Shown in pieces: positions 20,299 through 33,466 of a stretch of DNA of 64,000 bases. Within the stretch, counting starts at the first letter, position 1. Each line of letters starts with the position of its first letter. Under the pieces are notes generated by a model. It worked only from the letters and a program-made list of their open reading frames with translations. It was not told the DNA's origin and did no database searches. The translations under genes and the position numbers were made by a program. The stretch lies in contig CALSOU010000005.1 in NCBI GenBank assembly GCA_943788055.1, positions 1 to 64,000 on the forward strand, written 5' to 3'. Source of the DNA: an uncultured Saprospiraceae bacterium. Lineage in GTDB: Bacteria; Bacteroidota; Bacteroidia; Chitinophagales; Saprospiraceae.

Positions 20299-21552
20299 TT
20301 ATATAATCATTCCAGCTCCCACAGTATTGTTGGTAGCTTCATCAATAAATATGACACTACCCGTGATGCGATTGGTTCGGTATGCGTCGACATGAAGCGG
20401 CTTGGTGGTGCGGATTGTAATGCGCGCAATATCATTCATATTGATGGTTTTATCATCCTGTATTCTATGTAGCGTTTCGATGTTCAACTTGTATTGAATG
20501 TCCTTTACAATACAGCGCGCCTCTTGTGTTGTATGTTGAATCACATATTTTCCGCGTTGTTGTAATGCTTTTTCACTATCAAACCAGCAAATCATAAGAT
20601 CAATATCTTGTGTTGAATTTGGTTTGTTTTTTTCACGTACTATCATGTCACCTCTGCTGAGATCTAGTTTATCTTCCAATAGTATAGTGACACTTTGTGG
20701 AGGAAAAGCTTGGCCTGTTTCACCTGCTGGTCCTTTAATGGATGCTATTTTGCTCGTGAAACCACTAGGAAGTAGTAAAACATCGTCGCCTTTTTTGAGA
20801 ATTCCTCCTGCAATGCGACCACTGTAGCCGCGATAATCATGGAATTCATCAGAATATGGTCTTATGACATATTGGACAGGGAAACGCACATCAATTAGGT
20901 TGTGATCACTAGCAATGTGTACGTTTTCAAGATAGTACATGAGGGTCATACCTTGGTACCAAGACATATTTTTTGATCTGTTCACAACATTGTCTCCGTG
21001 TAGTGCTGAAATAGGAATAAAATCAACATCACGTACATCTAATTTGGACGCAAAATCTGAGAAAGAATCTTTGATTTCGTCGTATCGTTCTTGTTTGTAG
21101 TTAACGAGATCCATTTTATTGATGCAGACTACGATATGAGGAATTTGCAATAAAGATGCAATAATTGCATGCCTTCTGGTTTGTTCGATCACACCATGTC
21201 GTGCGTCAATGAGTATCAGAGCTACATTTGCTGTAGATGCTCCTGTAACCATATTTCTGGTATACTGAATATGGCCAGGAGTATCTGCTATGATGAATTT
21301 ACGTTTGGGTGTCGAAAAGTATCGGTATGCAACATCGATGGTTATACCCTGTTCCCGTTCGCTTTTGAGCCCATCTGTCAGAAGTGCTAGGTTTACTTGT
21401 TCTTCTCCTCGTTTATTGGAAACACGTTCGATCGCCTCGTACTGATCTTGATGGATGGACTTGCTATCATACAGTAAACGACCGATCAGTGTTGATTTTC
21501 CATCATCCACAGAACCTGCTGTTGTGAATCTTAGTAGTTCGGTGTTGCTCAT
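20299..21552 (-). CDS. cysN: sulfate adenylyltransferase subunit 1 (GTPase)
   Basis: The 417-residue product is the regulatory GTPase of ATP sulfurylase. It has the EF-Tu-like G motifs AGSVDDGKSTLIGRLLYD (about 12-29), EREQGITID, DTPGHIQYTRNM (90-101) and NKMD (145-148), then two beta-barrel domains. With CysD it activates sulfate to APS. No APS kinase domain is fused; cysC is a separate gene in the same locus. Unusually, cysN is separated from cysD by eight polysaccharide genes, all on the same strand, instead of being adjacent. This placement suggests dedicated sulfate activation for glycan sulfation. Confidence 0.95.
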   Translation of the reverse strand: MSNTELLRFTTAGSVDDGKSTLIGRLLYDSKSIHQDQYEAIERVSNKRGEEQVNLALLTDGLKSEREQGITIDVAYRYFSTPKRKFIIADTPGHIQYTRNMVTGASTANVALILIDARHGVIEQTRRHAIIASLLQIPHIVVCINKMDLVNYKQERYDEIKDSFSDFASKLDVRDVDFIPISALHGDNVVNRSKNMSWYQGMTLMYYLENVHIASDHNLIDVRFPVQYVIRPYSDEFHDYRGYSGRIAGGILKKGDDVLLLPSGFTSKIASIKGPAGETGQAFPPQSVTILLEDKLDLSRGDMIVREKNKPNSTQDIDLMICWFDSEKALQQRGKYVIQHTTQEARCIVKDIQYKLNIETLHRIQDDKTINMNDIARITIRTTKPLHVDAYRTNRITGSVIFIDEATNNTVGAGMII

Positions 21553-23100: not shown

Positions 23101-23811
23101 TTAAGAATTGAAATTGCTGATGTAATTCAACACGTTTTCTGAAATAAACTTGTGTCCCTTTTCATTGTAATGAATGCCATCTGGAAAATATTCTTCGGAT
23201 TCAAGGTTTGAAACATCTAGAAATGAAAGTCCGAATTGATCGGCAATATTCTTAAGCTCGACATTATACTCTTGATACTTGCGAAGTGTCCCTGGTAATT
23301 GGCGCTCTATTCGCATATTTCCAGAATTAATCCCTAGAATTAGGATTCTACTATTTGTATCTTTTTGGATACATTCTATCAATTGTTTGATATTTCTAGT
23401 GAATTCACTTTTCGAGATCCATGATTTTTTCAACCTCAAATAAGTAAATAGCTTTCTATATTTTGAAATGAAAGCATAGTATACTTTATAAAGGATATTA
23501 TAAAAGATTGATTTGCGTCGATTGTAAAGGATATCAGAATACCAAAATGGAATTTCGCGTGATGGAGCATCTACTGCACCGATATTTATGATGTATAAAT
23601 CTGCATATTCACGAATATATAAATCTCTGGAAGATAGAACTTCTCTTGACGTATATCGTCCACAAGATTGATTAGTAACTTGAAGATGTAAGTTGTTGTG
23701 TTCTGCGCCATTAAGTATTTGCCCGTAATTTAGGATTTCACTAGTCGGCCTGGCTCTTAGTCCTACAGAAGAGCCTATAATACAGATTTTATATGTTTTT
23801 TTAGATACCAA
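23101..23811 (-). CDS. SGNH/GDSL-type hydrolase
   Basis: The 236-residue protein shows the SGNH block I as IIGSSVGLR (Ser around residue 15) and block V as FPDGIHYNEKGH, giving the Asp211/His214 pair. The middle reads ILILGINSGN, in the place of block III. No signal peptide is seen, so it probably acts in the cytoplasm or at the membrane. Proteins of this fold in glycan loci are usually O-acetyl esterases or acyltransferases. The start is taken as TTG, overlapping the end of the sulfotransferase gene by 11 bases, which implies coupling. Confidence 0.75.
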   Translation of the reverse strand: MVSKKTYKICIIGSSVGLRARPTSEILNYGQILNGAEHNNLHLQVTNQSCGRYTSREVLSSRDLYIREYADLYIINIGAVDAPSREIPFWYSDILYNRRKSIFYNILYKVYYAFISKYRKLFTYLRLKKSWISKSEFTRNIKQLIECIQKDTNSRILILGINSGNMRIERQLPGTLRKYQEYNVELKNIADQFGLSFLDVSNLESEEYFPDGIHYNEKGHKFISENVLNYISNFNS

Positions 23812-25030
23812 AATCAGTAATATACTTTTTAGCTATTTCTTTCATTTCTTTGCTCCAATCCTCTGTTGTTAGCTTCTTGTAGAAAGCTTGATTGTACTTT
23901 TTAACTTCCAATTCTTCAGGTGTTAAGCCGATGAATTCTTGTATATACTTTGATTTAGAAGACAACTCTTTCAAGTGAACTGTTATAAATCGGTCGCTTT
24001 CTAGCTCTCGGAGCTGTTTTTGAATTAGCTTATTCCAAAATCTCCAATACCAGCAATTTCGTTCAAAAGCAGTCATAGACTTCCACGCTTCTTCGGATAC
24101 TTCACCTGTTTTAGATCCATTGATTCGGCAAGCTGCATAGTACTTTGCTGGCTTATGCTTAGGACGTTGGAACTCCACACTATTTGTAGGATATCCAAAT
24201 TCAGAATTGTTGAACCAACCTCTGGGATAGGCACTATTGACAAAGTCTTCAAGGTTTCTGATAAGCCAAACAAACTTTGCATTTGGAAATATTTGAGCTA
24301 GCTCTGAAATTAAAGCACCCAACTTCTGATCAGATTGCACATGGTTGGGCTTATTGATATAGCTAAGACCATCATAGGTATCATGAAGAGTCTGCCGGAG
24401 CTCATTGGATTCAACACGACCGTACAACTTATCAATCGCGTACCTTCCAAATTGTAAGTATGAATCATGTATAGCATGAACTTCACTATGTTGATTAAGC
24501 AGACTTGCAATTGCTTTGGAGCCTGACCTTCCAGTACTTAGAACAAAAACTAGATTTCCGGGAAGGTTCATATTTGTGTAGAAACTAGTACTAGTTGTTT
24601 GTTTATCAAATTCTGCAGAATTTGTAGAGTTTTCAGTATTTGACTTAATAATGGTCTTTGAAGGTATCTTACTTCCTTTAGCAATATTAACTCCAGGGTG
24701 GATAATGCTATTTGCTCCTATTCTCGAATTTGCACCGATGATTATCGGTTGATAAGATTTTAGAGAAGAGTTGCTCAAGAGCTGCACTCCATTTTCAAGA
24801 GTTACATTATCCTGAATGCAAATTCCTCCGTCTGAAGAGAGCTTGCAGGAAGCTTCTATTTGAACATTAGAACCTAGCTGAATAGCACTCGGATTATTTA
24901 TCTTGCATGGCGCTTCAATAGCAATTGCGTTACCTTTAATAGGTATCTCCTGTAATTGCAAAGAAGGATTCCTTGAATACTTCCACTTCTTATAAGTCCT
25001 ATTAAGTTTGCGTTTAATTTTAGAAATCAC
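23801..25030 (-). CDS. hexapeptide-repeat / sulfotransferase fusion protein
   Basis: The 409-residue product (GTG start) has two parts. Residues about 30-130 form a left-handed beta-helix of hexapeptide repeats (AIQLGSNVQIEASCKL, PIIIGANSRIGANSIIHPG), as in acetyltransferases. Residues about 155-400 form a PAPS-dependent sulfotransferase: the 5'-phosphosulfate loop VLSTGRSGSKA (about 163-173) and the 3'-phosphate motif WLIRNLEDFVNSAYPRGW (Arg258, Ser266). It would transfer sulfate from PAPS to a sugar of the surface glycan. The fusion may be a bifunctional modifying enzyme or the helix may serve as a trimerisation scaffold. Its PAPS supply, cysC, cysD and cysN, is in the same locus. Confidence 0.85.
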   Translation of the reverse strand: MISKIKRKLNRTYKKWKYSRNPSLQLQEIPIKGNAIAIEAPCKINNPSAIQLGSNVQIEASCKLSSDGGICIQDNVTLENGVQLLSNSSLKSYQPIIIGANSRIGANSIIHPGVNIAKGSKIPSKTIIKSNTENSTNSAEFDKQTTSTSFYTNMNLPGNLVFVLSTGRSGSKAIASLLNQHSEVHAIHDSYLQFGRYAIDKLYGRVESNELRQTLHDTYDGLSYINKPNHVQSDQKLGALISELAQIFPNAKFVWLIRNLEDFVNSAYPRGWFNNSEFGYPTNSVEFQRPKHKPAKYYAACRINGSKTGEVSEEAWKSMTAFERNCWYWRFWNKLIQKQLRELESDRFITVHLKELSSKSKYIQEFIGLTPEELEVKKYNQAFYKKLTTEDWSKEMKEIAKKYITDFGI

Positions 25031-25085: not shown

Positions 25086-26459
25086 TTAAGACGAAAGACT
25101 ATCGAATTTAGAATTTAGAGTTCTTTCATACACAGTATTATACCCTTCCCAGCCCTCTCTTTCATATGACGAATTATGCCACAAATAGACGAACGAACCA
25201 TTATATTGACTAACCGTCGATTTAAGCTTTTCTACCTTTTTAATAGCATCGTTCACTCCCAAATTCTCGTATTGTTTTAGGCTGACTTCCATCATGATTA
25301 ATGGTTGTTCTATGAGATTTAGTTCTTTTCGCTCTTGAAAATCATAAACTGGAAAATCATAACATACACCACATCTAAAACCAGCCATTCCAGCGTAGCC
25401 CAAGGTACTGTCCCATTCCATTTCGCTTTCTTCCCATATTCTCCAGGTTTCTGGTATGGAAAACCGCAAGTAATGCTGTCGGCCTGTTGTAATCTTGTTG
25501 CCAATTGTTTCTTCTAACCTTTGCTTCTCTTCTCTAAAAAGTTGAAGATTGTTATAGGTATCATATGACGGATGTAACCCAATATGATGGCCGCGATTTT
25601 GAATTTGAGCTATTAGCGAAGTAATCTTTTTACTTCCTATTTGATAAGCGGGGTCGTATTTGCTACTTCCTCCTGTCATGAAGAAAAAGGAAGCTTGTAC
25701 ACCCATTATTTCAGCATCACTCATCTGTTTTTCATGATAGTCATAGGGATCTTGACCGCTCAGAAATACCTTTGTTTCAGTACTAGCTTCTTTAAAATGC
25801 ATTTTGCTTAGATGCCAGGCTGTTTTCTTAAAATAGTGGCCAGTACTTTTGAAATAGTAAGGCATATCAACATCGTGTGTGGGGACGATGTGTGCAGTCC
25901 TTTTTTTTCGAGCTTGCTTTATTCCCATTTCCATTAAAATGGCCCACAATAGCTCGGTATATTCGTTTACGATCGGACGATCAAGAAAATTTTCCTTGAC
26001 TGCCAATGCCTCACTTGAGGGAAAACGATCGTGTTGATCTCGAACCTTATTGATACTCTCTTCCCATCGCGTAAGCATAAAGAAGCCATTCGCTAAGATA
26101 TCGTTATCTAAAACCCACTTCTTATCTTGCTGTGCCAATTGATTATTTCCATATATACAGACACTTGGGTGTTTTTTTGAACCTACCTGTAATGAAGACT
26201 TGGTGACTTTCTGTGGAATATCTTTAACGCTATATTCTGGAGTGGCTTTGCGCCAAAAAGCATTTCGAATTGTAAGTTCACGATCTCCAATTGCTAAGGA
26301 AGTATCTTGATCTTGATGGTTTTTAGATATTTGATATGATATTCCCAAAAATATCTCCAAATAGATTCGCAGCATATATTGTATTTCCTTCGATCCATTT
26401 GTTGGAATAGAAACTATCAATGCATTAGAGTTACTGGACAAATTTTCTTGAAGAATCAA
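25086..26459 (-). CDS. polysaccharide deacetylase family protein (DUF7033-type N-terminus)
   Basis: The 457-residue protein carries a carbohydrate esterase 4-like fold with the metal-site motifs PTHDVDMPYYFKS and GHHIGLHPSYDTY, and a later conserved block RFSIPETWRIWEESEMEWDSTLGYAG. The N-terminal roughly 130 residues resemble the DUF7033-type domain paired with such deacetylases in Bacteroidota glycan loci. It probably removes N-acetyl groups from an intermediate or the polymer, or is a glycan-locus protein of related fold. No signal peptide is visible. The start is TTG at 26459; no ATG lies nearby. Confidence 0.8.
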   Translation of the reverse strand: MILQENLSSNSNALIVSIPTNGSKEIQYMLRIYLEIFLGISYQISKNHQDQDTSLAIGDRELTIRNAFWRKATPEYSVKDIPQKVTKSSLQVGSKKHPSVCIYGNNQLAQQDKKWVLDNDILANGFFMLTRWEESINKVRDQHDRFPSSEALAVKENFLDRPIVNEYTELLWAILMEMGIKQARKKRTAHIVPTHDVDMPYYFKSTGHYFKKTAWHLSKMHFKEASTETKVFLSGQDPYDYHEKQMSDAEIMGVQASFFFMTGGSSKYDPAYQIGSKKITSLIAQIQNRGHHIGLHPSYDTYNNLQLFREEKQRLEETIGNKITTGRQHYLRFSIPETWRIWEESEMEWDSTLGYAGMAGFRCGVCYDFPVYDFQERKELNLIEQPLIMMEVSLKQYENLGVNDAIKKVEKLKSTVSQYNGSFVYLWHNSSYEREGWEGYNTVYERTLNSKFDSLSS

Positions 26460-29951: not shown

Positions 29952-30854
29952 CTAAAAATATCCTAGTTTTTTACGGTCTTCCATGCTTGTTTCAGATCGT
30001 TTGTCGTCAGCTCTACCACCGCGTTCAGTCATTCTTGTGGTAGCAACTTCTTGAATAATTTCTTCGATTGTTGAAGCTTCAGATCGCCAGACGCCCGTAC
30101 AAGTCATATCACCTATTGTACGACATCTTACAAGCTCTTCGGTGACTTTTTCGTCGTCATACTTTTCTATATAATCGCAATCCGCAAGCAGAATGCCATC
30201 ACGTTCTAGGATATTTCGCTTATGCGCAAAATATAAACTAGGCAACGGGACGTTTTCTTTAGCAAGATATTGCCACACATCTAGTTCTGTCCAATTGGAA
30301 ATAGGAAAAACGCGGAAGTGTTCGCCCAGGTGTTTTCTTCCATTGAATAGATTCCAAAGTTCGGGACGTTGATTTTTGGGATCCCATTGACCAAAATCGT
30401 CACGATGTGAAAAGAAACGTTCTTTAGCTCTTGCTTTTTCCTCATCACGTCTTGCGCCTCCTAGTGCAGCATCATACTTGCCGTTTTCTAGAGATTCCAA
30501 AAGCACATGTGTCTGTAGTCCATTTCTGCTGGCATTTTTACCTTTTTCTTCAGTGAGCGCTCCCTGGTCAATTGCATCTTGAACCGAGCCGACAATTAAT
30601 TTTGCTCCAAACTTTTCTACTAGACTATCGCGATATTCCAAAGTTTCTGGAAAATTATGCCCAGTGTCAATGTGTAACAAAGGGAATGGTATACGTGCCG
30701 GATAGAATGCTTTATAGGCAAGATAAACCATCAAAATCGAGTCTTTTCCACCGGAGAAAAGCAGGACTGGGTTTTCAAATTGCGCGGCGACTTCACGAAG
30801 AATGAAGATAGATTCTGCTTCTAATTCGTCTAAATGTGATACTTTATAATTCAT
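29952..30854 (-). CDS. cysD: sulfate adenylyltransferase subunit 2
   Basis: The 300-residue product is the catalytic subunit of ATP sulfurylase. The PP-loop SGGKDS lies at residues 34-39, and LLHIDTGHNFPETLEYRD, GARRDEEKARAKERFFSHRD, PLPSLYFAH and RCRTIGDMTCTG are all as in CysD. It forms APS from sulfate and ATP with CysN. Position is the unusual point: it sits between a sugar aminotransferase and a sugar dehydrogenase gene rather than next to cysN or any reductase gene. That suggests its product feeds PAPS for sulfation. Confidence 0.96.
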   Translation of the reverse strand: MNYKVSHLDELEAESIFILREVAAQFENPVLLFSGGKDSILMVYLAYKAFYPARIPFPLLHIDTGHNFPETLEYRDSLVEKFGAKLIVGSVQDAIDQGALTEEKGKNASRNGLQTHVLLESLENGKYDAALGGARRDEEKARAKERFFSHRDDFGQWDPKNQRPELWNLFNGRKHLGEHFRVFPISNWTELDVWQYLAKENVPLPSLYFAHKRNILERDGILLADCDYIEKYDDEKVTEELVRCRTIGDMTCTGVWRSEASTIEEIIQEVATTRMTERGGRADDKRSETSMEDRKKLGYF

Positions 30855-32866: not shown

Positions 32867-33466
32867 TTATAGTGAGACTTGAGTTTTCATATAATTTAGC
32901 AATATGCTAGCTGAAACCTCTAAGCTTTGATTTTCTGTGTCGATTTTCAGAGCAGGTTTAGTCGGTTGTTCGTAGGGAGAATCAATGCCAGTAAATCCGG
33001 AGATTTCACCAGCACGGGCTTTCTTGTAAAGGCCTTTTGTATCTCTTTTTTCACAAGCTTCAAGTGAAGTACTTATCCATACTTCATGGAAGTCTTGCTC
33101 TCCGATGATCGATTTTGCAAGCATACGGCTTTCTGTTGTTGGACTTACAAAAGCATTGATGCAGATAACTCCAGATTCAACGTATAATTTTGAAAGTTCT
33201 GCAATTCGTCGGATGTTTTCCTTGCGATCTTCAAGCGAAAAACTAAGGTCTTGACACAAGCCGTTTCTCACATTATCCCCGTCGAGAACTTGGATAAAAA
33301 AGCCTTCAGAAAAGAGCTGTCTTTCAACGAAAGAAGCGATCGTGCTTTTCCCAGAACCAGATAACCCAGTCAACCAAAAGATACCTGCTTTTTGATTTAG
33401 AAAAGACGCTCTTTCGCTTCTTTGGACTAATTTGTCATGAATTGGAAATATGTGCTTCTTATCCAT
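32867..33466 (-). CDS. cysC: adenylylsulfate kinase
   Basis: The 199-residue enzyme phosphorylates APS to PAPS. The Walker A motif GLSGSGKS lies at residues 34-41, followed by [39 protein letters not shown] and [26 protein letters not shown], all typical of CysC. It stands two bases from the acetyltransferase gene and overlaps ugd by eight bases, so it is firmly inside the polysaccharide operon. With CysD and CysN it completes PAPS synthesis; no PAPS reductase gene is present in the window. Confidence 0.96.

Follow-up and report, generated by a model that had tools for sequence, protein, structure and literature searches.

A hexapeptide-repeat domain fused to a PAPS sulfotransferase in an uncultured Saprospiraceae bacterium: a probable glycan sulfotransferase with a pseudo-acetyltransferase scaffold

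Closest described systems

Sulfated bacterial glycans are known, with few of their sulfotransferases characterised. The tyrosylprotein sulfotransferases (TPSTs) act on tyrosines of secreted proteins. TPST1 and TPST2 are alike with the sulfotransferase (ST) domain described here in their PAPS-binding motifs and fold, although the likeness in sequence extends no further than roughly its first half. TPSTs also differ in having no hexapeptide-repeat (LbH) domain, whereas the present gene, which has one, lies in a bacterial polysaccharide locus. Hexapeptide repeats are shared by this LbH domain and the maltose and galactoside O-acetyltransferases, and galactoside O-acetyltransferases are the best PDB matches of the family profile (3v4e, E 8.4e-21). 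These enzymes differ from the present protein, which has neither the catalytic His nor the C-terminal coils and is fused to an ST.

Heparan sulfate N-deacetylase/N-sulfotransferase (NDST) resembles the fusion in that an ST is joined to another glycan-modifying module (the ST described here matches 9f6z with Z 12.7), that module being, however, a deacetylase and not an LbH domain. The nearest functional parallel, likened by function, is the rhizobial pair NodL and NodH, an acetyltransferase and a sulfotransferase which, according to PMC5080398, are each able to act on deacetylated chitooligosaccharides; unlike the fusion, they are two separate proteins. No description of an LbH-ST fusion was found in the literature searched, outside which most subscription papers lie, and the order may already stand, unremarked, in public architecture tables. 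PMC3071791 mentions a sulfotransferase and a hexapeptide repeat in unrelated places. According to a 2020 paper, no prokaryotic sulfotransferase acting on glycosaminoglycans was known (PMC7356697).

The fusion gene and its two domains

The window (the whole stretch of 64,000 nucleotides that was analysed) was found to contain an LbH-sulfotransferase fusion gene, the features of which are collected in Table 1. A first-pass annotation of the DNA had placed such a fusion, in one frame, at 23801-25030 without giving a strand. Both the coordinates and the single frame were borne out, with the gene on the minus strand; the plus strand of the same interval has many stops. A separate ST translated from the internal start M154 was also considered; no Shine-Dalgarno-like stretch was seen by eye, which makes it less likely.

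Table 1. Coordinates of the fusion gene, its parts and neighbouring or related genes (positions in the window unless a locus is named).
Feature	Position	Strand	Basis
LbH-sulfotransferase fusion gene	23801..25030	minus	409 aa, GTG start, single unbroken frame
Hexapeptide-repeat (LbH) domain, residues ~35-128	24647..24928	minus	Pfam Hexapep over cut-off; strand ladder in AlphaFold model
LbH acetyltransferase catalytic-His site, residues 84-95 = LLSNSSLKSYQP, without His	24746..24781	minus	alignment
Disordered linker, residues 131-155	24566..24640	minus	pLDDT <50 (AlphaFold2)
PAPS sulfotransferase (ST) domain, residues 157-409	23804..24562	minus	Pfam, AlphaFold and fold search
5'-phosphosulfate-binding loop STGRSGS, residues 165-171	24518..24538	minus	motif
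3'-phosphate-binding motif R(x7)S = RNLEDFVNS, residues 258-266	24233..24259	minus	motif
SGNH/GDSL-type hydrolase gene	23101..23811	minus	PF13472 over cut-off
VimE-like protein with DUF7033, upstream neighbour	25086..26459	minus	PF23019 over cut-off
CysN, sulfate adenylyltransferase large subunit (PAPS supply)	20299..21552	minus	TIGR02034, 543.6 bits vs 336.1
CysD, sulfate adenylyltransferase small subunit (PAPS supply)	29952..30854	minus	TIGR02039 over cut-off
CysC, adenylyl-sulfate kinase (PAPS supply)	32867..33466	minus	TIGR00455 and PF01583 over cut-off
VimE-like relatives	L073:10697-12022; L074:6839-8206; L075:6259-7641; L006:13141-14463; L023:9181-10269		

The identification of the C-terminal half as a PAPS sulfotransferase is supported by the STGRSGS and R(x7)S motifs, by the Pfam family Sulfotransfer_3 (PF13469; 36.7 bits against a curated cut-off of 27, E 7.1e-9, residues 160-267) and by its fold. 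The best fold match of this half is tyrosylprotein sulfotransferase 1 (5wrj; Z 16.4, rmsd 3.4, 211 residues aligned), covering model residues 153-409. A search of viral structures returned the ST part alone. The AlphaFold model of another fused member (L026) has a mean pLDDT of 68.1 with a low-confidence LbH domain, and its ST matches TPST with Z 17.0.

The N-terminal half had been read as a hexapeptide beta-helix, which agrees with a Pfam Hexapep match over the cut-off (PF00132; 32.0 bits against a curated 27, E 8.6e-8, residues 95-128) and with a ladder of eight short strands within residues 42-116 of the AlphaFold2 model (mean pLDDT 74.6, pTM 0.69, from an 8-row alignment), where 10-residue pLDDT means range from 64 to 86 across residues 31-130. 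The LbH assignment is thus one by sequence and strand pattern; the ST fills the fold-search lists, so those speak for the ST only.

The aligned acetyltransferase site, which from the literature on maltose and galactoside acetyltransferases we take to be catalytic, reads LLSNSSLKSYQP and has no His, the catalytic column being occupied by S. The sole His in residues 35-130, H111, lies in a different column, in which no other His-less fused member has a His. Alignment with His-bearing members indicates that the full C-terminal coils and tail are also missing, from about residue 131 on. Because the catalytic His is missing, the window protein was not filed as an acetyltransferase, and the earlier suggestion that it acetylates and sulfates the same sugar is unsupported for this protein. 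Use of the helix to trimerise, which had been offered as the alternative, would be the better fit.

Distribution of the fusion

When the same two-domain order was looked for in other genomes, it was found in 13 distinct proteins, the window protein included, from Bacteroidota, Pseudomonadota and one cyanobacterium (12 from profile searches plus L085, with a family-profile score of 28 bits for its ST remnant). The first-pass annotation had allowed that homologues might always be two separate genes; the fusion instead recurs, and an order found in one frame in 12 other proteins cannot be put down to coincidence or to an error in the reading frame. Genes for related hexapeptide proteins are also found on their own in the vicinity of other STs. 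In the window's own genome the fusion gene is the one match. A genome of the same genus (G003) encodes a 393-aa protein that unites both parts in a single frame, and the surrounding locus has in common with the window genes for CysD, CysN, a DegT aminotransferase, a Gfo/Idh oxidoreductase and flippase-like, SGNH and VimE-like proteins. Other carriers include Loktanella atrilutea, Rhodocyclaceae and Gammaproteobacteria MAGs, a Bacteroidia MAG and the cyanobacterium Aphanocapsa lilacina.

A scan of genome contigs with the window protein alone gave no match, while alignment A1 gave eight loci, namely six fusions and two stand-alone STs. The fusion was found in five of 298 genomes of the window's family (G000, G003, G089, G140 and G216) and, at E 1e-15, in 2/345 Bacteroidota (G000 and G533). 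Two of 349 Pseudomonadota matched at E 1e-40 (the seed G662, and G983), and the only matches at E 1e-35 among 244 genomes of the cyanobacterial phylum and among 248 of the Loktanella family were the respective seeds. In the class of G661, matches came from three of 219 genomes, namely the seed itself, G672, where the LbH is followed by a decayed ST, and G1741, where the ST is accompanied by TPR repeats and lacks an LbH. None of 199 Planctomycetota genomes matched at E 1e-35, an empty answer that by itself shows nothing. As these samples contain the seeds, overlap and were searched at strict cut-offs, the counts describe a rare and scattered fusion and are not an estimate of its frequency. No match was obtained to the window protein in plasmids, phages and viral contigs, to the L026 protein in plasmids at E 1e-30, or to profile A2 in viral contigs.

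At E 0.01, Pfam finds no hexapeptide family in the close relatives L006/L022 and L011, and its match is below the cut-off in L013 and L023. The LbH domains of L022 and L011 are nevertheless alike with that of the window protein (phmmer domain E 1.6e-10 and 2.2e-4, respectively), and those of L006/L022 and L011 are also recognised by the family profile, which itself contains them. The very long N-terminal parts of L024 and L025 (816 and 878 aa) were taken to be open-frame DNA artefacts, since Pfam at E 0.01 finds only the LbH and ST families in these proteins and since that of L024 overlaps, as judged by eye, a glycosyltransferase-like frame on the opposite strand. Later starts were chosen for both, and one for L028 too.

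Survival of the two active sites

The acetyltransferase His is kept in six of the 12 fused rows (L024, L025, L026, L028, L031 and L072) and missing in the other six (the window protein, L022, L011, L012, L013 and L023), which have no common His column in the alignment of the LbH core. Both PAPS motifs are intact in 10/12 rows; the ST loop of L012 reads STGGAGS, and the cyanobacterial L028 has lost both motifs. The thirteenth member (L085:1264-2361, minus strand, in G672) keeps the His (YSANHSYE) and has a shortened ST from which the motifs are gone, that is, a pseudo-sulfotransferase. Over all 13 proteins, both sites are intact in five (L024, L025, L026, L031 and L072), the acetyl site alone is lost in five (the window protein, L022, L011, L013 and L023), it is lost together with an altered ST loop in one (L012), and the sulfate site alone is lost in two (L028 and L085, the cyanobacterial and a gammaproteobacterial member).

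Judged by these motifs, the five members keeping both sites may acetylate and sulfate one sugar. It is tempting to see here a family of single-chain acetyl-sulfotransferases, acting on one glycan in the cytosol, whose decay took two opposite courses: in several lineages of Bacteroidota (that of the window included) the acetyl site disappeared and the beta-helix stayed on as a scaffold, and in the cyanobacterial and gammaproteobacterial members the sulfate site disappeared and the acetyl site remained; we rate this scenario at slightly less than even odds. The family is at any rate wider than the window protein, and would represent an apparently bifunctional enzyme with one or other site lost by lineage. 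A fused acetyl- and sulfotransferase, if true, would tie both decorations physically to one glycan. Since the opposite losses amount to natural single-site versions, the question of whether a dead domain serves as a scaffold becomes a simple assay.

Phylogeny of the two domains

The ST trees were built from 12 fused rows and 17 or 18 unfused rows; the two weak second frames of L042 and L055 were excluded, as were repeat loci. On account of its later discovery and degenerate ST, L085 was not placed in any tree; L031 ends at a contig end, with the remainder on another contig. In the tree of 29 STs, the 12 fused STs and the stand-alone L027 (Aminicenantes) are separated from 16 stand-alone STs by a branch with support 99/97, and the support is again 99/97 for the 14-row set obtained when the TPR-fused L084 is added. 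The ST of the window protein groups with those of L022 and L011 (100/99). The LbH-free L027 and L084 sit within the fused-ST clade and may have lost the LbH domain secondarily. An exclusive clade of fused STs, without these two, is absent from the best tree, yet was not rejected (p-AU 0.19). L084 (L084:739-2244, minus strand, in G1741) has C-terminal TPR repeats instead of an LbH domain and the phosphosulfate-binding loop GTGQCGM; its neighbours look by eye flagellar-hook-like (flgL/flgK-like), and a flagellar protein is a possible substrate.

Separate LbH and ST genes were found together in three Bacteroidota genomes. In G600 a His-bearing LbH gene is followed by an ST gene 18 bases away, and in G089 and G174 the order is LbH, methyltransferase-like, ST, VimE-like. 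All three separate LbH proteins are His-bearing, and their tails resemble the stretch that connects the two domains of the His-bearing fusions (R[DN]xxxY ... [FY]GG). As the STs of these pairs fall outside the fused clade, LbH domains of this type are associated with STs beyond the fusion itself. The LbH tree, with 19/30 generic LbH rows and the three LbH genes paired with STs, has many weak branches and carries the His-less rows on long branches, and so shows no single origin of the fused LbH domains.

Gene neighbourhood and PAPS supply

The genome, which is 96.85% complete, has CysD as its sole match to PF01507 and the fusion as its sole match to Sulfotransfer_3. No PAPS reductase is therefore seen in this genome, which points to PAPS being made for sulfation. 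The window region also encodes, over cut-offs, two nucleotide-sugar dehydrogenases and a WecB-type epimerase; below cut-offs, a NeuD-type acetyltransferase and a mannose-1-phosphate guanylyltransferase-like protein; and in addition a DegT aminotransferase, a Gfo/Idh oxidoreductase and a flippase-like protein. Elsewhere, a GT2 gene adjoins the fusion in three proteobacterial loci (L026, L079 and L087), with a flippase-like gene on the opposite side in two, and an ABC-transporter ATPase, its Wzt domain scoring below the cut-off, is the immediate upstream neighbour in L077 and L080.

The SGNH-type gene overlaps the end of the fusion gene by 11 bases, and in the congener a relative comes immediately after the fusion (L006:10441-11136), with PF13472 below the cut-off there; this gene might encode an acetylesterase or a replacement acetyltransferase. 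The upstream VimE-like protein scores 207 with the VimE model, for which the cut-off is 440. VimE-like genes, several with DUF7033, were also observed beside or near the fusion or the LbH and ST genes in several Bacteroidota loci (Table 1). A deacetylase beside an ST could provide for N-deacetylation followed by N-sulfation. Two genes upstream of the fusion in L023, a D-glucuronyl C5-epimerase domain was noted (L023:5560-6582; PF06662, 100 bits), hinting at a glycosaminoglycan-like sulfated polymer.

Proposed function and alternatives

The window protein is best explained as a whole as a PAPS-dependent glycan sulfotransferase with a pseudo-acetyltransferase scaffold, a reading to which we assign a probability of about 0.6. 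It would be a cytosolic enzyme sulfating the glycan made by this locus, with PAPS supplied by CysN, CysD and CysC of the same locus. PAPS and acetyl-CoA are cytosolic, so that modification before export is the likely setting; sulfation would probably take place on the lipid-linked glycan. The N-terminal domain would have descended from an O-acetyltransferase of the maltose/galactoside type, losing the catalytic His, the C-terminal coils and the tail while keeping the beta-helix core, which most likely serves the ST as a scaffold for trimerisation or glycan docking. We infer in this way the activity and substrate of the protein, its trimer and its descent from an active bifunctional ancestor.

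Two comparisons bear on the fate of the LbH domain. Mean pairwise identity (15 pairs each) is 0.51 for LbH and 0.38 for ST among the His-bearing rows, against 0.25 and 0.35 among the His-less rows, which indicates that loss of the His is followed by faster evolution of the LbH domain than of the ST. Core columns were taken to be the 24 in which L/I/V occurs in at least five of six His-bearing rows. There, 109 of 129 cells of the His-less rows hold L/I/V/M/F, compared with 71/419 elsewhere, and for the window protein the counts are 20/23 and 7/73; as the alignment itself favours hydrophobic matches, this is support and not proof of a conserved core.

That the window frame is a misread junction of two genes, as the separate neighbouring LbH and ST genes of G600, G089 and G174 might suggest, has a negligible probability and was ruled out by the recurring fusion, found in three phyla and in a congener with a matching locus. 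The same gene pairs, lying side by side in three genomes, make it plausible that the two activities serve one glycan and, with the five members having both active sites, lend something to the idea that the window protein is itself bifunctional, its LbH domain acetylating through another residue the glycan that the ST sulfates. This we consider very unlikely for a protein without a His at the site and without the C-terminal coils and tail, and no common His is found elsewhere among the His-less rows.

A rather stronger rival, though still an unlikely one, is that the LbH domain is a passive remnant without function, the acetyl site having been lost and the rest wearing away. Its faster evolution relative to the ST among the His-less rows, their long branches in the LbH tree, the Pfam hexapeptide matches lacking at E 0.01 in L022 and L011 and falling below the cut-off in L013, and the two LbH-free members within the ST clade all speak for it. 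Against it, the hydrophobic core is kept in all six His-less rows and the repeats of the window protein still score over the Pfam cut-off. The placement of L027 and L084 in ST phylogeny suggests, moreover, that loss of the LbH domain is survivable; because the core survives and the domain has been kept although its loss looks survivable, a retained scaffold is favoured over a passive remnant.

At its N-terminus, the congener protein (L006:9263-10444) is strongly hydrophobic over residues 1-30 (RLFFFVGKILFWLFPGF), which suggests membrane association; the corresponding stretch of the window protein is basic.
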